Source: Arthrobacter sp. ISL-72 (lineage in GTDB: Bacteria > Actinomycetota > Actinomycetes > Actinomycetales > Micrococcaceae). Taken from it: DNA of 64,000 nt. Below the pieces are notes generated by a model. It worked only from the letters and a program-made list of their open reading frames with translations, had not been told where the DNA came from and ran no database searches. The stretch lies in contig NZ_JAGGPP010000015.1 of the NCBI RefSeq assembly GCF_018613755.1, positions 1 through 64,000 on the forward strand, given 5' to 3'. Made by a program: the position numbers and the translations under genes. Below are positions 7,950 through 19,778 of the stretch, piece by piece. The first letter of the stretch is position 1; the number at the start of each line of letters is the position of its first letter.

Positions 7950-8068
7950 CCCCGCAGCTATTGCCACGAACCACCTCCTCGTTCGGCGGCCGGGCACTTC
8001 GGCCAGGACCGCCAAAATGCCCCTGAGAGGACTGCCGCGGCCGGTCGGGCAGGTCTACCCTTGGTATC

Positions 8069-8164
8069 ACGGTGATGGATCCCACCGGGACCGGCTGACG
8101 CCCGGTCCGCACTGCCAATTTGGCTGATGGTTCCTGCCCCGACTGTGAAGGGCAGGAGATTCGT
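8069..8164 (+). promoter_or_regulatory. Fluoride riboswitch 1
   Basis: The leader carries the conserved elements of the crcB-motif aptamer: GGTGATGG at 8071, a GC-rich stem with GACCG/CGGTC pairing, and GGCTGATGGTTCCTGCC at 8122. The expression platform is the hairpin CCTGCCC (8134-8140) with GGGCAGG (8150-8156). Its 3' arm contains the AGGAG ribosome-binding site of the downstream gene, so without fluoride the site would be sequestered and ligand binding should free it. Control is thus probably translational. Confidence 0.9.
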
Positions 8165-8165
8165 T

Positions 8166-9026
8166 ATGGCAGGAAATCGAAGCAGGCCCCGCGGCACGGA
8201 AACGCGGGAACGGGATATGCTCACCGGCGTTTTGGTGCCCATCGGCCCGCTGGAATTGTCTGCGGAGGAAGCGCGCCAACTGTGGTCTTTCATCCATGGG
8301 GACATCATGGACGGGAGTATGCGCCGGTTGCTGCGCGCCTCGCTGGGGTTGTGTCCCCGGCATGCCTGGGCGTACGCGGTAGTGGAGGTCGAGCTGTGGC
8401 AGGCCGGCGCGGGCGCCCGCGGAGGGCACCAGCCTTTTGATGTCACGATCCTGTATGAGGATCTCCTTGAACACGTCGCCGACGGGCTTGACCGGAAGAG
8501 TTCACTGGTGCACCGGCATCCGGACGAGGTGCTTCTCCCTATCGGACCGTGCCGGATCTGCCAGGATATGGCAGCCCCGGACCTGCCGGGTTTGCGGATG
8601 GGCTACGCGAACTCCAACACCGAAGCACTGACCCTTGAAGCGAACGCCATGGTCCACACCACAACCTGGTGCCTTGAGACGGTGGGCCTCTGGCGGGACA
8701 GGGTGTGCCCGGACTGTCATCCCGGTACCCCGGAGGGGGCCGGCGACCCGGTGTTGTTGTGCTGTTTCCACCTGGCGGCCCGGCGACCGCTGCCGGAGCA
8801 GCTGCGGCACGCCGTGGCTGCACGGCTGCGGGAGATCCGGGCACGGATGAGGCACCTGACCGAGTCCATGACGGACTACGGGGCCCCGGTGGGCGCCATG
8901 GAGAACACGTCCTGGATCGAGGCCATAGGCTTTTTCGCGGGCTGGGGTCTGCCCCTGTACCTGGCGACCGACCCGGAGGAGGCCTGGCCCGGACCGGACA
9001 GCCAGGATGCCGAACAGGGAGATTGA
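8166..9026 (+). CDS. Cys-rich hypothetical protein of the fluoride regulon
   Basis: A 286-residue soluble protein I cannot assign. It starts at ATG 8166, ten bases after the AGGAG that closes fluoride riboswitch 1; the longer frame starting at 8127 would begin inside the aptamer. Cys/His pairs are spread along the chain: LCPRHAW (about residue 59), PCRICQDM (about 128), VCPDCHP (about 180) and LCCFHLA (about 198), which suggests one or two structural zinc sites. The C-terminal 60 residues are rich in Trp and Phe. Its sole placement directly under the riboswitch makes it a candidate new fluoride-tolerance factor. Confidence 0.75.
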   Translation: MAGNRSRPRGTETRERDMLTGVLVPIGPLELSAEEARQLWSFIHGDIMDGSMRRLLRASLGLCPRHAWAYAVVEVELWQAGAGARGGHQPFDVTILYEDLLEHVADGLDRKSSLVHRHPDEVLLPIGPCRICQDMAAPDLPGLRMGYANSNTEALTLEANAMVHTTTWCLETVGLWRDRVCPDCHPGTPEGAGDPVLLCCFHLAARRPLPEQLRHAVAARLREIRARMRHLTESMTDYGAPVGAMENTSWIEAIGFFAGWGLPLYLATDPEEAWPGPDSQDAEQGD

Positions 9027-9075
9027 CCGCGTCATAGTGTGGCGGCCACCGCGGCTGTCCCTGTAGTCTCTGTTC

Positions 9076-9176
9076 ACGGTGATGGATCCCGCCGGAACAG
9101 CCCGCACGCAAGGTGCGGGGCGTTCGAACCGCCTCCTGGCTAATGGTTCCTACCTTTGCTGATCCGAAGGTAGGTG
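9076..9176 (+). promoter_or_regulatory. Fluoride riboswitch 2
   Basis: The aptamer starts with GGTGATGGATCC at 9078 and ends with GGCTAATGGTTCCTACC near 9138-9154. The expression platform is CCTACCTT (9149-9156) pairing with AAGGTAGG (9167-9174), whose 3' arm is the ribosome-binding site of the phosphoglycerate mutase gene (ATG 9181). A TAGTCT box at 9064 fits a -10 element just before the aptamer. It is the same translational design as riboswitch 1. Confidence 0.9.
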
Positions 9177-9180
9177 ACTC

Positions 9181-9936
9181 ATGCCCGCACGCGGCGCGCT
9201 CGTCCTCCTCCGCCATGGCCAGAGCGTCCTGAACGCCCAGGACCGGTTCACCGGCCTGCTCGACCCGCCCCTGACCCCGCTCGGGGAAAACGAAGCGGCC
9301 TGCTCCGGAGCCCTGCTGGCCTCATCATCCTTTTCCCCCGGCACGGTCTACACCTCCACGCTGACGCGCACCCGGGCCACCGCCCGCATCGTCCTTGATG
9401 TCCTGGGCGCCCTTGACGTGCCGGTCTTTGCGGCCTGGGAACTGAACGAGCGCAGTTACGGCTCCCTGACGGGCAGGGCCAGGAGCGAACTGCTCAGCGA
9501 GCTCGGGCCGGATGTCTTTCGTTTCTGGCGGCGCTCCTACTACGGGGCGCCGCCTCCGATGTCACGCGCCGAGCTGGGCGCGATCCGGCGCACCCGGGCG
9601 TTCGCGGGGTTGCCTCCCGAAGCGGTCCTGCCCACGGAATCGCTGTGCGGGGTGGTCAAACGTGTCCGGATCTTCTGGCACCAGCACCTTCGCCCCAGGA
9701 TCCGCGCGGGAGAGGATGTGCTGGTGAACGGGCACGGCAATTCGCTGCGGGCGCTGTGCCTTGTCCTGGACGGGCTCTCCCATGCCGAGGTCGAGGCCCT
9801 GAACATCCCCACCGGGCACCCGCTGGCCTATCGCTTCACCCCTGGCCTGGTGCCGGCGGTGCGGGGCGGGGAGTATCTGAACCCGCTGGCGGCGCGGACC
9901 GCCGCCGCCCTGGTCGCTGCCGCCGGCGGGACCTGA
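9181..9936 (+). CDS. gpmA: 2,3-bisphosphoglycerate-dependent phosphoglycerate mutase
   Basis: A 251-residue histidine-phosphatase-fold enzyme that interconverts 3- and 2-phosphoglycerate. The catalytic motif RHGQSVLNAQDRFTG is at residues 11-25, ELNERSYG near 89 and GHGNSLRAL near 185 with the second catalytic His. Length and motif order match GpmA. It lies seven bases after riboswitch 2 and directly upstream of enolase, so two successive glycolytic steps are fluoride-induced together. As enolase is the known fluoride target, this pair probably keeps lower glycolysis running during fluoride stress (inference). Confidence 0.88.
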   Translation: MPARGALVLLRHGQSVLNAQDRFTGLLDPPLTPLGENEAACSGALLASSSFSPGTVYTSTLTRTRATARIVLDVLGALDVPVFAAWELNERSYGSLTGRARSELLSELGPDVFRFWRRSYYGAPPPMSRAELGAIRRTRAFAGLPPEAVLPTESLCGVVKRVRIFWHQHLRPRIRAGEDVLVNGHGNSLRALCLVLDGLSHAEVEALNIPTGHPLAYRFTPGLVPAVRGGEYLNPLAARTAAALVAAAGGT

Positions 9937-14202: not shown

Positions 14203-14559
14203 TCATGCCAGCCAGGCGGCAGCGCCGGCCCCTGCCCCGGCGAGCGAGAAGGCGAGGGACAAGAGGAGATGCGCAGCCGGGACGACGGGTGCGCGATCGG
14301 GTCTTTCCTGCCTCAGCCAGGACATGGCGAAGGCTGTTCCGGCATACGTGGTTAGCCCGGCGGCCGCGCCCATTGCCAGAGGCGCGGAGGACGGGCCTGA
14401 CCCGGTGGCCAGGACGACTCCGGTGATCAGGCCCAGGACAAGGGCCAGCGCGGACTCGGCGACCCATTCCGTTCGGGGACCGGTGGCTCCGGCAAGTGCG
14501 CGCTGAAGGAGGACGCGGAGCAATGATCCTGCCAGGGCGCCGATGGCGATGGTGAGCAT
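14203..14559 (-). CDS. Divergent CrcB-like membrane protein
   Basis: 118 residues, ATG 14559 after GCAGGAGGCGACA. Four hydrophobic helices and the elements GALAGSLLRVLLQ and GAAAGLTTYAGTAFAMSW place it near CrcB. The signature residues differ: the pore Asn of the VINxxG segment is replaced (AESALALVLGLITG), and the TTFST stretch reads TTYAGT. Such loss argues against a normal fluoride pore. It may be an accessory subunit or have taken on another role. It lies between pyrophosphatase and the MFS gene in the riboswitch 3 operon. Confidence 0.6.
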   Translation of the reverse strand: MLTIAIGALAGSLLRVLLQRALAGATGPRTEWVAESALALVLGLITGVVLATGSGPSSAPLAMGAAAGLTTYAGTAFAMSWLRQERPDRAPVVPAAHLLLSLAFSLAGAGAGAAAWLA

Positions 14560-14629
14560 GCCGATTATGTCGCCTCCTGCCGATGTTGTGAAAGGGAGCG
14601 TGGGTCTGCGTTCGTGACAGGAGGGGTGT

Positions 14630-15171
14630 TCATGGGTGCGCGCCGGTCTTTTGGTCCTGCCAGCGTTGGCTGCATTCGCCAACAATTGTGGCCGCTTCCT
14701 CCGGCGTCCCCCGCCCAAGGACGCGGGTGTGTGTTCCGGGCTGGAGGTCTTTGTAGTGGTTGAAGTGGTGGGTGATCTGTTCCTGCCACCTGGTGCCGAG
14801 GTCTTCGAGCGTGCTGATCCGGTTCCCGGCCTCGCGGTCATCTGCCGGGACGGCGATGATCTTATAGTATCCCCGTCGCGGAAGTTCAGGACGCCCAGTA
14901 TCCGGGCGTGGACGACCAGCCCGATGGGCAGCGGTTCGCGGGTCACGCACAGGATGTCCAGTTCGTCGCCGTCTTCATCCAGGGTTTGGGGAAGGAAGCC
15001 GTAATTCACGGGTTTGGCGAAGATCCCCAGATCGACGCGGTCCAGGTGGAAGAGGCCGGTGGTGCGGTCCCATTCGATCTTGTGGCTGGAGCCCATCGGG
15101 ATGGCAATGACGCCGACGACCAGACCGTTGAGGTAGTCCCCGCATCCAAGGAGCGCGTTGTAGTCGGTCAT
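14630..15171 (-). pseudogene. ppa: Inorganic pyrophosphatase (class I), single frameshift
   Basis: The N-terminal frame from ATG 15171 carries IPMGSSHKIEWD, VNYGFLPQT and the class I signature DEDGDELDILCV. At about 14869 one base appears to be missing: the frame must change from FRDGD to YKIIAVPADDREAGNRI, and then runs to TAG at 14630. The restored protein would be about 180 residues, normal for soluble pyrophosphatases, with all catalytic Asp residues. The enzyme hydrolyses PPi and is strongly inhibited by fluoride. Its start overlaps the leader mini-ORF by ATGA. Either the gene was recently disabled or a sequence error is present. Confidence 0.85.
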
Positions 15172-15281
15172 GACCGCGTTCCCCGTTCGGCATCTCCAGC
15201 ACCGGGGCGGGCAGGATTTTTTGGGGTCTGCGCGCTGGTGCGCTCATGTCGCTGGTGTGGGGTGGCGCCGGGATTTTGCAT
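15168..15281 (-). CDS. 37-codon leader mini-ORF coupled to ppa
   Basis: ATG 15281 is preceded by GGAG five bases away. The frame encodes a 37-residue basic, Pro-rich peptide (start MQNPGATPHQ, end AERGTRS) and its TGA overlaps the ppa ATG (ATGA). The first two bases of the start codon and the last base of GGAG lie inside the riboswitch 3 platform helix. Ribosomes admitted by fluoride would reach ppa by termination-reinitiation. A similar arrangement is found at 19474. The peptide itself need not be functional. Confidence 0.55.
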   Translation of the reverse strand: MQNPGATPHQRHERTSAQTPKNPARPGAGDAERGTRS

Positions 15282-15374
15282 AGTTCTCCGTCTGTGCGTG
15301 GCACTGAACAGGAACTATCAGCCGGGGCGGCGGTTCGGACGGTGTGGCCCGCCCCGGCGAGATCCATCACCGTT
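15282..15374 (-). promoter_or_regulatory. Fluoride riboswitch 3
   Basis: On the minus strand GGTGATGGATC (15371-15361) opens the aptamer, GGGGCGG/CCGCCCC form a stem, and GGCTGATAGTTCCTG (15323-15309) closes it. ATAGTTC (15318-15312) can pair with GAACTAT (15286-15280), which covers the start of the leader mini-ORF. Compared with the two plus-strand switches, the final loop reads GATAG rather than GATGG. It controls mini-ORF, ppa, the CrcB-like gene and an MFS transporter. Confidence 0.88.
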
Positions 15375-15512
15375 CCCCTGTAATGAACCACATCGCGGCA
15401 CCTGCTGGCAAGGAAACAGCGCAGCGAATGAGTTCCCGGTAAGGGTTCCGGGCCGCTGAACTGCCCTCACGGTTTCCAGGTGGGCCGATGAGCCGGAACA
15501 CCAGAAGTGCCG

Positions 15513-16396
15513 CTACGACGGCGCGGAGCCCGAGCCGGTACCGGATGCAGCGGTCTTTGGAGGGCGGTCCTGGATCAGGTCCGGGGGGTCAGCGACGGAG
15601 TTCAGGATCTGGTCCGGGCGGTAGGGGTAGATGGCGAGGTCGTCCTTGTGGGTGACGCCGCTGAGGACCAGCACGGTGTGTAGTCCGGCTTCGATGCCGG
15701 CGATGATGTCGGTGTCCATCCGGTCCCCGATGATCGCCGTGGTGCGTGCGTGGGCTTTGATCCGGTTCATCGCGGAGCGGCACATCATGGGGTTCGGTTC
15801 GCCCACGATGTAGGGTTTTCGTCCGGTGGCTGTGGTGATCAGTGCCGCTACGGCGCCGGTGCCGGGCACCCGTCCGGCGCCTGGAGGGGCCGGTGGCGTC
15901 CGGATTGGTGGCGATGAAGCGGGCGCCGGCCAGGATCAGCCGGATCGCCGCGCTGATCGCCTCGAAGGAGTACGTGCAGGTCCCGCCGAGGACCACAAAG
16001 TCCGGGTCCTGGTCGGTGAGGATGAAGCCTGCCTCGTGCAGCGCCGTCGTGAGCCCGGCTTCACCGATGGCGTAGGCAAGGTTTCCGGATTCCAGACCGT
16101 GGGTCTGGTCTGTGAGGAACTGGGCAGTGGCCAGCGCGGAGGTCCAGATATTTTCCTCCGGGACCTCCAAACCCGTATCACCAAGCATTGCTGCCAGGTC
16201 CCGGGGTGTGTAGATGGAGTTGTTCGTGACGATCATGAAAGCCGTGGAGGTCGCCGCCCAGTGACGGATCAGTTCCCGGGCTCCGGGGATCGCCTGGTTG
16301 TCGCGGACCAGTACACCGTCCAGGTCCGTCAGCCAGCACTCGATCCCCTGGCCGCTGCCGTCGGCGACGGTGCCGGGGCCTGCCAGATGCTGCCAT
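15513..16396 (-). pseudogene. NagD-like HAD-superfamily phosphatase, two frameshifts
   Basis: Third gene after the two MutS-like ATPases. A good AGGAGG precedes ATG 16396, but the HAD frame begins one base later: reading ATG-CAG would need loss of one G right after the start. The frame then gives CWLTDLDGVLV (nucleophile DxDG), MIVTNNS and FIATNPDATG. Near 15870 a second one-base shift is needed to continue into GTGAVAALI, VGEPNPMM and GDRMDTDI (the Mg-binding acidic motif). Restored, it is about 290 residues, typical for NagD/PGP phosphatases. The C-terminus is Pro-rich. Substrate unknown. Confidence 0.75.
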
Positions 16397-17954
16397 GGCG
16401 TGCCTCCTGGTGGGCCTGCGGTTCAGGGGACGCGTCCGGGACTGCCTGGCCGAAGACGCGGGTGTAGAGGTCGTCGCCGTAGCTGGTGCGGGTGGGTTCG
16501 CCCGGGTGCAGTTTGAAGGTCCGGCGCCCGTCGGCCTGGCGTTCTGCCTGAAGGAACAACGCGTCCGGCGGCGCCTGGGCGAAGAGGGAATGCGCCAGGT
16601 CGTACAGGTGGGTGACGATGAGGACGCGTACCCCGGCCTCGGTCAGGGACCGGATGATGTCGTAGCTGATGCTGGAGCCCTCACGTTCGTTTGTGGCTGC
16701 GAAGGATTCGTTGAACAGCACCATGGACCCGGGCATGAGGTGCCCGGCGATGCTGTTCATCCGGGACAGCTCCTCGTCGAGTTTTCCGCTGCGCAGTGCG
16801 GCGTCCTCTTCCCGTTTGAAGTGGGTGTAAAGGCCGTTGCAGGTGCTGGCGCTGAAGTATTCGGCGCAGACGAACATCCCGGCCTGCATCATCAGCTGCG
16901 CGGCACCTGTAGCGCGCAGGAAGGTTGATTTGCCGCCTTCGTTCGCGCCGGTGATCATGACCAGGCTCATGCCGTCCGCACCCAGATCGTTGCCCACGGC
17001 GGGCCGGTGCCCTGCCAGGGCCAGCGAAGGCTCATAGAGCCCCCGGGCGGACAGAACCGGTTCGCTGTTCACGGGCTCGGGTTCGGGTTTGGGCAGGCAG
17101 ATTTCCGTCCCGGTCGTGGTAAGCCGGTCGTGGAGGTTCAGGCAGGAGACGTAGAAACCGAGTTCGGCGCGGAGCAGTGCGAAGAAATCCAGGATGTGGT
17201 CATCGGACTGTGCCAGGGCGTTGGCGGCAAGATTCATGCCCCGGTCCCGCAGGTCCGACAGGGCCCGGTAGCCGCTTTCATCGCGGTCGCTGATGTGGAA
17301 GGACAGGACGGACCGGTCGCTGGTGAAGAAATCGGTGAAGAAGTTACACAGGGCCTGCCAGCGTGTCCGGTGCGGGGGCCGGCGCAGGGTGTATCCGGTG
17401 GCCTGGTTCCCGGGCCCGAGGCTTGCGCTGAGGAGCACGCCGGAGCGGAATTTCAGTTGTTTCAGGTGCGCAGTGACGCTCTGGAGGTAGACGGGTCCGA
17501 GTTCATCGGTGATCATGGCGAAAAAACGGGTGAAGCCGGGCGAGTGAAACGTCCCGGCCTCATCCGTGGCCAGCTCGTGCAGGCGCCGCAGCAGGGGCAT
17601 CAGGAAGGTCAGGGATTCGATGGCGCGGCGCAGTATCGCACCGGGGTAGTTGTTGAAAATTCCGCGGTAGATCTTCTTCTCGCCCTCGATGGCCTCCACC
17701 GTCAGTGCATACAGCCGGCGGACCGTGGCGGGGTTTTCCAGGCAATCGAGAAGGATCTGTTGGCGGTAGTGGATACTTTCGGGGTCGGTCAGGCTCCGGG
17801 CCAGGGTATCGGTGGCCGTGGTGAGGAGGAACTCGTCGCCCTTGGCCATGGCTTCCAGGACCGGGCGCAAGGCCAGGTCCCGGACCAGGTCGGCGGCGTT
17901 GGCCGGCAGTTCCGGTGTGGGTGATCCGGCGGGGGCAAGAAGGAAGGCCTTCAT
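16329..17954 (-). CDS. MutS-like ATPase 2 of the fluoride operon
   Basis: 541 residues with the MutS lever/clamp helices in the N-terminal two thirds and an ABC-type ATPase at the end: Walker A GANEGGKSTFLRA (about residue 335), Walker B SMVLFNESFAAT (about 405), switch VLIVTHLYD (about 445). No mismatch-recognition domain is visible, so it is not a standard mismatch-repair MutS. It overlaps the upstream mutS-like gene by ATGA. Its last 68 bases overlap the HAD gene in another frame. MutS-like genes are known companions of fluoride riboswitches, with unexplained function. Confidence 0.85.
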   Translation of the reverse strand: MKAFLLAPAGSPTPELPANAADLVRDLALRPVLEAMAKGDEFLLTTATDTLARSLTDPESIHYRQQILLDCLENPATVRRLYALTVEAIEGEKKIYRGIFNNYPGAILRRAIESLTFLMPLLRRLHELATDEAGTFHSPGFTRFFAMITDELGPVYLQSVTAHLKQLKFRSGVLLSASLGPGNQATGYTLRRPPHRTRWQALCNFFTDFFTSDRSVLSFHISDRDESGYRALSDLRDRGMNLAANALAQSDDHILDFFALLRAELGFYVSCLNLHDRLTTTGTEICLPKPEPEPVNSEPVLSARGLYEPSLALAGHRPAVGNDLGADGMSLVMITGANEGGKSTFLRATGAAQLMMQAGMFVCAEYFSASTCNGLYTHFKREEDAALRSGKLDEELSRMNSIAGHLMPGSMVLFNESFAATNEREGSSISYDIIRSLTEAGVRVLIVTHLYDLAHSLFAQAPPDALFLQAERQADGRRTFKLHPGEPTRTSYGDDLYTRVFGQAVPDASPEPQAHQEARHGSIWQAPAPSPTAAARGSSAG

Positions 17955-19477
17955 GAGGTGATCCTCTCCTTCAGTTCCGGGTAGGTCAGGCCCTGGTTGG
18001 CGGCCAGGATCTTCGCGTAGGCGAGCCCGTTGGCCGGTTGGCGCAGGATCTTGAAGGTCCGCACGGCCGGGTTAGCAGGGTCTACGGTGCTGACCATGCT
18101 CACGGTGGTGCGGCTGAGCCTGGAGAGCTCATCGATGAAGGTGACGCACACGCAGATCAGGTTCAGGTCGATGATGTGCTGCAGGATTTTGCCGCTGAGG
18201 AAGACGGCATCCTGCAGGGTGGTCGAGGTGAAAATTTCGTTCAGGATAATCACGCTCCGCGGCGTTGCCCCGCCGAGGATGTCGTGGACCCTGACCAGTT
18301 CATCGTGCAGCTTGCCGCGCAGGTCCGCCTGGTTCTCTTCCCGTTCAAAATGGGTGAAGATCCGGTCCGGCAGATACAGCATCGCACGGGAGGCGGGCAC
18401 CGGCAGACCGAGGGCGGCCAGGTAATGGAGCTGGCCGATGGTGCGGGCGAACGTCGTCTTCCCGCCCTGGTTCGGGCCCGAAACGACAAGGATACTCTCC
18501 GGCCCGCTCAGCTCAAAGTCATTTAGAACTACAGTCCTGCCCTCAGCCACGAGCGTGCCTGCCAGGGCCAGATCAAAAACGTCCGTGCCCGAGATGTCCT
18601 TCGACGTTGCTGAAACGATCGGGTAGGTGAAGACCAGCCCGGCGCGGCTCAGCTGGCCGATGTGGCGAAGATACGAGAGATAGAACTGGACTTCCCGGTC
18701 AAAACGAACGATGACAGGGTCCTGGAAGCCGGCATGCCGGTCACAAAACGCGGCAAGGTCGGTGAAAGTCCCGGAGAACAGTACCGCTACCCGGTCAAGG
18801 ATCATCGCCTCGACATGGTTCATCTCGTGCGAACTTCGGAGCGCGGACCGGTAATCCTTCGGATTGCCTTGCCGGAACCTGCGGAACGTCGCTTCGACTT
18901 CTGCCGTGTAATCGGGTTCGTTACCCCTCCGGCCCACCGAGATGTTGCCGCCGTCGATGTGCACCATATAGGAGATGCCGGCCAAGTCGTCGCGCAGCTT
19001 TCGGACTTCTTCCTCCAGGCCAAGGACCGCTTCGGACGAGAGGTAACTGCCCAGATAGTCCCTGACAGCGCGGAGACCCGATGACCTGGGCCCAGCCTCG
19101 GACAGGCCGGCAGCGAGCGAGGAGACGGCAGCCAAATACTGCTCGACGGCAGTGAGGAAAACTTCCATCTTCTGGTACCGGTAATGCAGGCTTCCCGCCG
19201 AAGCGAGGGTCTCCCGGACCCCGCGCATGGCAACGGAAAACTCCTCCACAGCCTCCCGCACCGCGCTGGTCTCCAGATCCCTGCAGATCCATTGCCGATA
19301 AGCGACTGTGCCCTCATCCACTTGCGGAGCGTGGAAGACCGGCTTCAGCCCGTATTCCTGATAACCGGCAGTGACAGCCTCGATGATCTGTTCAAGCTGC
19401 AGGTCAGACAGGGTCCCGGGCAGAGGAGAGTCACCGGGCGGGTTTTCGGAGTCGTAAAGGACGCTAAGAAAAGTCAT
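17951..19477 (-). CDS. MutS-like ATPase 1 of the fluoride operon
   Basis: 508 residues; helical N-terminal region and MutS ATPase domain with Walker A GPNQGGKTTFAR (about residue 330), Walker B SVIILNEIFTST (about 405) and VTFIDELSR (about 450). As in its partner, the mismatch-binding domain is absent. ATG 19477 has its own GGAGGGG site and overlaps the stop of a 28-codon leader ORF. The two ATPases are probably partners in a heterodimer, as tandem non-identical MutS-type proteins often are (inference). Confidence 0.85.
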   Translation of the reverse strand: MTFLSVLYDSENPPGDSPLPGTLSDLQLEQIIEAVTAGYQEYGLKPVFHAPQVDEGTVAYRQWICRDLETSAVREAVEEFSVAMRGVRETLASAGSLHYRYQKMEVFLTAVEQYLAAVSSLAAGLSEAGPRSSGLRAVRDYLGSYLSSEAVLGLEEEVRKLRDDLAGISYMVHIDGGNISVGRRGNEPDYTAEVEATFRRFRQGNPKDYRSALRSSHEMNHVEAMILDRVAVLFSGTFTDLAAFCDRHAGFQDPVIVRFDREVQFYLSYLRHIGQLSRAGLVFTYPIVSATSKDISGTDVFDLALAGTLVAEGRTVVLNDFELSGPESILVVSGPNQGGKTTFARTIGQLHYLAALGLPVPASRAMLYLPDRIFTHFEREENQADLRGKLHDELVRVHDILGGATPRSVIILNEIFTSTTLQDAVFLSGKILQHIIDLNLICVCVTFIDELSRLSRTTVSMVSTVDPANPAVRTFKILRQPANGLAYAKILAANQGLTYPELKERITS

Positions 19478-19560
19478 GACGCACCCCTCCTGCCATCAAC
19501 AGGTCCAGGGCCGGGGTGTTGCCAGGCGGACCGGGTCCGCCTGTAATGGGAAATGTTCAT
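19474..19560 (-). CDS. 28-codon leader mini-ORF coupled to mutS-like gene
   Basis: ATG 19560 follows CAGGAG by seven bases. The frame encodes MNISHYRRTRSAWQHPGPGP and eight more residues and ends in a TGA that overlaps the ATG of MutS-like ATPase 1. The CAGGAGC containing the ribosome-binding site is one arm of the riboswitch 4 platform helix. The peptide is basic with Gly-Pro repeats and is not similar to the ppa leader, so position rather than sequence seems conserved. Confidence 0.55.
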   Translation of the reverse strand: MNISHYRRTRSAWQHPGPGPVDGRRGAS

Positions 19561-19656
19561 TTGGCCGCTCCTGCCTGCCGCAACATCGGACAGGAGCCAT
19601 AAGCCGGGAGGCTGTTGGAACCGGATCAACCGGTTCAGGCGGGATCCATCGCCTTC
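19561..19656 (-). promoter_or_regulatory. Fluoride riboswitch 4
   Basis: Minus strand GGCGATGGATCCCGCC (19653-19638), an AACCGG/CCGGTT stem and GGCTTATGGCTCCTG (19604-19591) form the crcB-motif aptamer. GCTCCTG (19597-19591) can pair with CAGGAGC (19573-19567), hiding the ribosome-binding site of the leader ORF. A TAGAAT -10 box lies at about 19670, so transcription would start just before the aptamer. It governs the two MutS-like ATPases and the HAD gene. Confidence 0.85.
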
Positions 19657-19778
19657 CCATATTCTAGGCACAGAACCACCCTTTGGAAGATCAGAAACCC
19701 ATTCAGCCCATCGCCACCCTGTCTGATAGCTAAAACGCCCTGCTGGTCACAGGGCGGCCCCTGTCCCACACTGGCTTC

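Follow-up and report, generated by a model that had tools for sequence, protein, structure and literature searches.

Fluoride riboswitches before short open reading frames that end on the start codons of mutS and ppa in Arthrobacter sp. ISL-72

What does a riboswitch control when the start that it masks belongs to a short open reading frame (ORF) and the gene behind keeps a start of its own? The question is raised by a 64,000-nt stretch of the Arthrobacter sp. ISL-72 genome (contig NZ_JAGGPP010000015.1, positions 1 to 64,000; hereafter the window), in which two minus-strand fluoride riboswitches, A and B, each lie before a short ORF (mini-ORF A, 37 codons from 15281; mini-ORF B, 28 codons from 19560) whose TGA stop overlaps the ATG of the next gene, ppa behind A and mutS1 behind B. 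An earlier note on this DNA had described this arrangement, with the short ORFs and not the first enzyme genes as the gated frames, and its coordinates and codon counts proved exact. Our reading, which we hold to be slightly on the probable side, is that each mini-ORF is a fluoride-gated adaptor that passes ribosomes to the next gene by termination and reinitiation.

The window lies in a fluoride-resistance island. A search of the genome gave six fluoride riboswitches, four of them within the window, where they are surrounded by genes of the fluoride-resistance type (pyrophosphatase, HAD, MutS-like, enolase and a crcB-like gene below the Pfam cut-off). On the minus strand, switch B is followed by mini-ORF B, mutS1, mutS2 and a HAD remnant, and switch A by mini-ORF A, ppa, the crcB-like gene and an MFS gene. 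On the plus strand, one switch precedes a 286-codon gene starting at 8166 and another precedes a pgm-like gene (start 9181), enolase and usp; in both, the platform covers the Shine–Dalgarno sequence (SD) of the first gene itself. A further pair of fluoride switches lies elsewhere in the genome (G000:C54:290646-291743), 5′ of a second copy of the 8166-type gene and pgm.

Predicted gating of the mini-ORF starts

Both aptamers are rows of a 35-member alignment, the invariant columns of which are present in each. Across this alignment, 99.4% of cells preserve the pairing of the loop-to-tail pseudoknot, and two-sided changes occur at three of the five pairs. The strand pairing with the mini-ORF SD comes directly after the tail strand of the pseudoknot and shares some of its bases. 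In B, the SD AGGAG (19572-19568) sits wholly within the 3′ arm of the platform helix, CAGGAGC; in A, the corresponding arm, GAACTAT, takes in the last base of the SD GGAG (15289-15286) together with the AT of the start codon. Both helices are present in the predicted minimum-energy folds, as expected from the proposal in the earlier note that the ribosome-binding site or start codon forms one platform arm. Since SD pairing and pseudoknot are mutually exclusive, ligand binding should free the mini-ORF start, so that fluoride should act in the ON sense. Sequence, predicted folds and covariation together thus suggest that the switches control the mini-ORF starts.

Mini-ORF A runs from an ATG at 15281-15279 to a TGA at 15170-15168, with the ppa ATG at 15171-15169; mini-ORF B runs from 19560-19558 to 19476-19474, with the mutS1 ATG at 19477-19475. 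Both junctions therefore read ATGA. Upstream of its ATG, the frame of mini-ORF B stays open across the aptamer as far as a GTG at 19671; the SD-bearing start within this frame is the one at 19560. The motif GGCAGGAG precedes both the start of mini-ORF B (19568-19575) and that of mutS1 (19487-19494) on the minus strand, possibly a duplicated start region. Mini-ORF B also holds a nearly perfect 21-nt palindrome, CAGGCGGACCCGGTCCGCCTG (19523-19543, minus strand), which would form a 9-bp hairpin and has no T run.

Recurrence of the four-nucleotide overlap behind fluoride riboswitches

To place the two junctions among others, 234 distinct switch sequences were surveyed, drawn from 80 mutS loci of named genomes, from family, genus, order and class searches, and from plasmid records. 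Matches below 20 bits in one search set and below 17.5 bits in another were not entered, nor were L061:1-38 (cut off), L085 and L072:13186. A homology-supported first gene was available for 192 switches. With a gate defined as a start preceded by an SD that is able to pair with the tail of the aptamer, we found the gated start in frame with the gene at 71 junctions and leading to another ORF at 60; 12 were terminator-like and removed before counting, and 49 had no gated start. In 37 of the 60, the gated ORF is short (8-74 codons) and the start chosen for the gene lies downstream of it; the length limit and the need for a downstream main start kept out rows in which the main gene was mis-called, such as two-gene crcB junctions.

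Nine of these 37 short ORFs overlap the next gene by exactly 4 nt. Shuffled leaders with a random frame gave 1.09 ± 1.01, with a highest value of 7 and none of 5,000 shuffles reaching 9. Leaving out the window and its genus, six of 31 overlap exactly, against a null of 0.86 (2 of 20,000 shuffles reach this), and a harsher null that keeps the real base after the start codon rose to 1.37, with 13 of 20,000 shuffles reaching six of 31. An A after the start codon is not common otherwise, being found in 19 of 115 directly gated genes. The layout therefore recurs in other bacteria above chance. Besides the two window sites, the nine junctions lead to a NADH dehydrogenase family gene (L086, PF00146), two genes that are NADH-dehydrogenase-like by their resemblance to it (L072 and L196), a dynamin-like GTPase (L133, PF00350), a gene with no Pfam match (L101), a mutS (L095) and a usp from the same genus as the window (L206). 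Further 4-nt overlaps went uncounted, either with a T run and weak starts (L108 and L114) or at starts passed over by the main-start rule (among them L132:2497, L152 and L215).

Tail-to-SD pairing in the nine junctions was 7.0 to 11.0 (mean 8.67), whereas tails swapped between loci gave a mean of 6.32, the best of 20 swaps being 7.00; the choice of gates needed a helix of at least 5.5, which somewhat favours real pairs over swapped ones. Switch A, at 7.0, is among the weakest of the nine.

In one genus of the order, gated starts before crcB occur in three forms: in frame (L157 and L159), out of frame with an ATGA (L168) and about 20 nt short of the gene (L153 and L156).

A proposed route for ribosomes

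In the scheme that we favour, fluoride would let the aptamer pseudoknot take up the segment that otherwise pairs with the SD, and the start of the mini-ORF would open. Ribosomes would then translate 28 or 37 codons into a peptide of no particular meaning, terminate on the TGA inside the ATGA and reinitiate at the overlapping ATG of mutS1 (or ppa), aided by the SD of that gene; another ATGA links mutS1 to mutS2. The position and the stop of the mini-ORF would matter, and the peptide would not. Translation, reinitiation and dependence on fluoride are what we infer here from the parts present, their exclusive pairings and the recurrent exact overlap. The mutS1-mutS2 4-nt overlap also stands in all four plasmid records inspected (L230-L233: Rubrobacter, Rhodococcus, Mycobacterium branderi and Alicyclobacillus).

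Coupled translation, which the earlier note had offered as a possible function, is the best supported of the functions considered and has a precedent in the Mycobacterium tuberculosis ppe2 leader (PMC11260477); unlike ppe2, however, mutS1 and ppa have SDs of their own. The same note had called the two peptides unrelated and the design probably gained twice or kept for its position. The peptides of mini-ORFs A and B are indeed unrelated to each other, and relatives of either were absent from the plasmids searched and unconvincing in the fetched loci (best E 0.024). Separate gain or retention for position fits what was found: the judgeable relatives of mutS1 lack the mini-ORF, and unrelated switches have different mini-ORFs with the same NTGA junction.

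Own starts, probable pseudogenes and the possibility of a relic

The strongest competing explanation, although unlikely in our judgement, is that the mini-ORFs are relics or incidental. A deletion or rearrangement would have left each switch before a foreign start, the mini-ORF would be a remnant of an older first gene or nothing at all, and mutS1 and ppa would start from their own SDs, controlled by fluoride loosely or not at all. Such deletions are visible in the genus. Fluoride switches are present in 27 of 196 same-genus genomes, including that of the window; of the 37 places listed in other genomes, 28 were examined. The switch leads to a gene of the 8166 type at eleven of these and to pgm at three, and at the other 14 it is followed by a stub of 10-112 codons, or an in-frame fused start, and then by usp. 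Most stubs open like pgm (MPA or VPA, several VPAPGPVFLP), as if the 5′ part of a deleted pgm had remained, the RHGQ motif being kept only in the G187 stub. All 14 reach the usp start and none ends upstream: five by a 4-nt overlap (G1029, G1172, G1054, G1114 and G1179, the last of these read by eye, its usp frame not fitting by tblastn), five by an 8-nt overlap (G1017, G1060, G282, G039 and, by arithmetic, G187) and four in frame (G1102, G1031, G1039 and G1024). The usp start reads NTGANTGA in nine of the 14, with stops in both other frames within 8 nt.

Erosion is also apparent downstream of both window junctions. The change of frame in ppa was found by tblastn with two relatives, and the ORFs of nine of 14 relatives split there. 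For the HAD gene, a split seen with one of 11 queries is weak alone, and the two Pfam halves in different frames carry the point; a few queries also gave frame-split matches opposite intact genes, on the antisense strand (6 of 78, 1 of 53 and 1 of 100). Sequencing error was considered as the cause and judged unlikely. Among 108 matches to the ABC-transporter domain PF00005 in the genome (150 of 185 candidates scored), none had an internal stop and four were partial, so the frameshifts are probably real and both genes are probably pseudogenes. The frameshifted ppa reading continues in frame into the crcB-like gene as one 322-codon ORF (14203-15171, minus strand), and ribosomes from the broken ppa would thus reach that gene without stopping. 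An ATG at 16396 on the minus strand has a good SD yet seems out of frame with the HAD motif (15513-16396).

Several observations weigh against the handing over of ribosomes, and some of them favour a relic. Both downstream genes have their own SD, AGGAGG for mutS1 and GGGGAA for ppa, so initiation without the mini-ORF is possible, and occlusion of these sites is not above that in shuffled upstream sequence (z of −0.5 and −0.2). The codon signal of the mini-ORFs (−0.34 and −0.37) is not gene-like when compared with 0.22 to 0.57 for the genes of the window. No homologous mini-ORF for either site was found in the genus DNA, plasmid and fetched-locus searches; with the mini-ORF A region as a DNA query, 18 of 198 same-genus genomes matched, including that of the window, which alone matched in the mini-ORF itself, the others matching only in the aptamer (query about 27-92) or the coding part of ppa (299-367). 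Mini-ORF A may serve a dead gene, at which coupling may no longer matter. In the survey, 28 of the 37 gated short ORFs lack the exact overlap, five of the six overlapping loci outside the genus are metagenome bins, and the mutS frame of L095 is open also upstream of the chosen start. The rules for gate and main start were heuristic and set during the work, and the gate was fixed after a first look, so that the test was not fully blind. In the genus, one of the eleven 8166-type places (G1051) is a fusion whose 197-codon ORF ends in enolase sequence and stops 22 nt before usp, so that, with it counted, 14 of 15 switch-stub-usp deletions reach the usp start. Moreover, 36 of 42 possible frames are open in the usp loci, because the stubs are GC-rich and short, and the chance of all 14 reaching usp is 0.066. 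Selection on the usp junctions was accordingly not counted as proof; the series illustrates the origin of such junctions more than any selection on them, and is weak evidence for coupling.

What a relic does not readily explain is the excess of exact 4-nt overlaps at unrelated loci, and neither mini-ORF convincingly resembles anything among the fetched loci. At ppa, the start is backed by three island-type relatives beginning MPEYN or MPDYN; the base after their ATG is C (MPE, MPD and MPD), while the window's MTD has the A that creates the ATGA. A fourth, distant relative starts MKE. The start regions of the two downstream genes cost 11.5 and 12.0 kcal/mol to open, above 23 and 26 of 30 ORF starts in the window, a set that may include these two, but not above the cost with shuffled upstream sequence. 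A special hiding of the mutS1 SD by the mini-ORF through a CACCCC/GGGGTG hairpin was considered and dropped, the opening cost being no higher than in shuffled controls.

Other explanations for the short ORFs

An improbable alternative is that the role is transcriptional, with translation of the mini-ORF shielding the leader from Rho (or uncoupling polymerase), the mutS1 mRNA completed only with fluoride and the overlap secondary. The predicted fold of leader A has an unpaired C-rich stretch, and a review describes the fluoride switch as raising transcription of downstream genes (PMC11139923). For ppe2, Rho-dependent termination without translation of the upstream ORF (uORF) was considered, but the authors concluded that Rho does not account for the effect (PMC11260477). 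Shielding from Rho would, moreover, have no need of an exact overlap.

Far less probable is an error of frame, by which mini-ORF B would really be an in-frame N-terminal extension of mutS1, separated by a sequencing error or a frameshifting site. In-frame extensions in the family speak for it. Matches to mutS1 occurred in 11 of 295 family genomes, its own included, and upstream regions were inspected for eleven mutS copies from eight other genomes, two of them cut by a contig end and one without a recognisable switch. All eight judgeable copies have a gated start that reads into mutS in frame: that of G115 is the ATG of mutS itself, and those of the seven others (G113, G052, G291 with two copies, G202, G229 and G015) begin an N-terminal extension. 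A one-base change near the junction would join the frames in the window, and two more frameshifts lie nearby. However, a TGA interrupts the mutS1 frame 7 codons upstream of its ATG, a complete SD stands at that start, the best-matching of these relatives, G115, begins at the same residue (MTFQSIL), and the genome has no general frameshift problem. The best match to mutS1 among named genomes, from Arthrobacter terrae, has 55% identity.

By comparison with these copies, the out-of-frame mini-ORF of the window is derived or local; in none of the eight does a gated frame stop short of mutS. A search with the 82-residue C-terminal part of ppa found the island type in three other genomes of the 295 (G052, G291 and G202, far above the rest), near which a fluoride switch was looked for and not found. 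Conservation of frame in homologous loci, which the earlier note had named as a check, thus turned up neither a broken frame nor a mini-ORF homologous to either of the two; at ppa, itself frameshifted, the question may be moot.

That the mini-ORFs encode sensing leader peptides, adding a second signal to the switch by attenuation or stalling, is the least credible of the alternatives: the two peptides are mutually unrelated, have no convincing relatives and lack gene-like codon use, although a conserved-end uORF of 40-43 codons does follow a fluoride switch, upstream of one gene family, in three Acidobacteria bins (L118:5599-5661, L135:5595-5657 and L123:409-471). These uORFs have VK..V.K and VRRC as their two conserved ends, are most conserved at second codon positions and lie about 70 nt before the conserved gene; they are probably translated leader peptides.

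Features of the window

Table 1. Coordinates of the switches, mini-ORFs, junctions and genes discussed, with the basis of each assignment
Feature	Position	Strand	Basis
Fluoride riboswitch aptamer B	19584..19662	-	RF01734, 29.9 bits (E 2.9e-5), under the gathering score of 34; invariant core columns kept
Platform helix B, 5′ arm GCTCCTG; the GGCTCC at this site is also the pseudoknot 3′ strand	19591..19597	-	Sequence, fold, covariation
Platform helix B, 3′ arm CAGGAGC, containing the mini-ORF B SD	19567..19573	-	Sequence and minimum-energy fold
Mini-ORF B, 28 codons + TGA (MNISHYRRTRSAWQHPGPGPVDGRRGAS)	19474..19560	-	Sequence, ORF listing
SD of mutS1, AGGAGG, inside mini-ORF B	19486..19491	-	Sequence
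ATGA, mini-ORF B stop overlapping mutS1 start	19474..19477	-	Sequence
mutS1, MutS domain V protein, 508 aa, intact	17951..19477	-	PF00488, 9e-17; relatives
mutS2, 541 aa, ATGA overlap with mutS1 (17954-17951)	16329..17954	-	PF00488; ORF listing
HAD-IIA hydrolase remnant, frameshifted, limits approximate	15513..16331	-	PF13344 and PF13242 in different frames
Fluoride riboswitch aptamer A	15302..15380	-	RF01734, 35.3 bits, gathering score of 34 exceeded
Platform helix A, 5′ arm ATAGTTC	15312..15318	-	Sequence and minimum-energy fold
Platform helix A, 3′ arm GAACTAT (SD end and AT of mini-ORF A start)	15280..15286	-	Sequence and minimum-energy fold
Mini-ORF A, 37 codons + TGA (MQNPGATPHQRHERTSAQTPKNPARPGAGDAERGTRS)	15168..15281	-	Sequence, ORF listing
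ATGA, mini-ORF A stop overlapping ppa start	15168..15171	-	Sequence; ppa start backed by relatives
ppa, inorganic pyrophosphatase, frameshifted near 14870	14633..15171	-	PF00719 across two frames
CrcB-like gene 3′ of ppa	14203..14559	-	PF02537, 2.5e-5, 25 bits, under the cut-off of 32.9
Comparison fluoride riboswitch, platform directly covering the SD of the gene at 8166	8062..8143	+	Sequence, predicted gate
Comparison fluoride riboswitch, platform directly covering the SD of the pgm-like gene at 9181	9069..9159	+	Sequence, predicted gate

A possible way of linking a riboswitch to a gene with a start of its own

Taking the window, the family and the survey together, our best reading of the sequences is that there are two ways to tie a gated start to a gene that keeps its own: a mini-ORF ending on NTGA, or an in-frame N-terminal extension. 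We would go further only tentatively, to a view that we find attractive but hold at somewhat less than an even prospect, namely that gated adaptor ORFs are a general and repeatedly evolved means of attaching a riboswitch to such a gene. The switch would act on a start codon that lies a fixed distance away, and evolution would bridge the space between that codon and the gene by an in-frame extension or an NTGA mini-ORF. Loss of a first gene would make an adaptor at once, because coupling-ready starts are already present, as from the pgm-like stub to usp.

If this is true, one class of targets is overlooked when riboswitch annotation seeks only hidden gene starts, and a single device would account for many of the short leader ORFs and 'N-terminal extensions' that follow switches. 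A riboswitch could be re-wired to a new gene after a deletion, with promoter and SD unchanged, and a testable series of intact operon, 4-nt, 8-nt and in-frame versions would be at hand within one genus.

Comparison with known systems

No description of a fluoride switch gating a uORF was found in the literature searched, which was mostly without subscription journals. The new points would be the class of ligand, the sign expected of the switch, the return of the layout at loci unrelated to each other, the existence of an in-frame alternative, and operon erosion as a visible route to such junctions.

The direct experimental precedent for coupled translation behind a riboswitch, by analogy, is ppe2 of M. 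tuberculosis. As described for that leader, the platform of a B12 riboswitch partly masks the SD of a uORF, uPPE2, the stop of which overlaps the ppe2 start as AUGA; expression falls severely when the start or the SD of the uORF is lost, and the effect is assigned mainly to termination-reinitiation (PMC11260477). The window platforms resemble it in masking, by sequence and predicted fold, the SD of a short ORF that ends in an NTGA overlap with the start of the gene. The B12 switch is an OFF switch, whereas the fluoride switch is expected to be ON; the ppe2 account gives that gene no obvious SD, whereas mutS1 and ppa both have one; and here different uORFs with similar junctions are spread over several phyla.

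Short leader ORFs near gene starts in Actinobacteria and other phyla have been proposed to raise translation by reinitiation (Korolev et al. 2016, PMC4833913). Those leader genes, however, do not overlap the gene, with a peak at 10-11 bp, and the main text of that paper does not contain the word riboswitch.

With the fluoride (crcB) riboswitch family RF01734, the switches of the window share the aptamer, the pseudoknot and the platform pairing after the core. The start hidden in that family is more often that of the gene itself, by our rules at 71 of 131 gated junctions, against 60 leading to another ORF. The same 4-nt junction is also found inside operons, as between mutS1 and mutS2 or eno and usp, but there both partners are full genes, whereas at the two junctions described here the upstream partner is an ORF of 28 or 37 codons under a switch.

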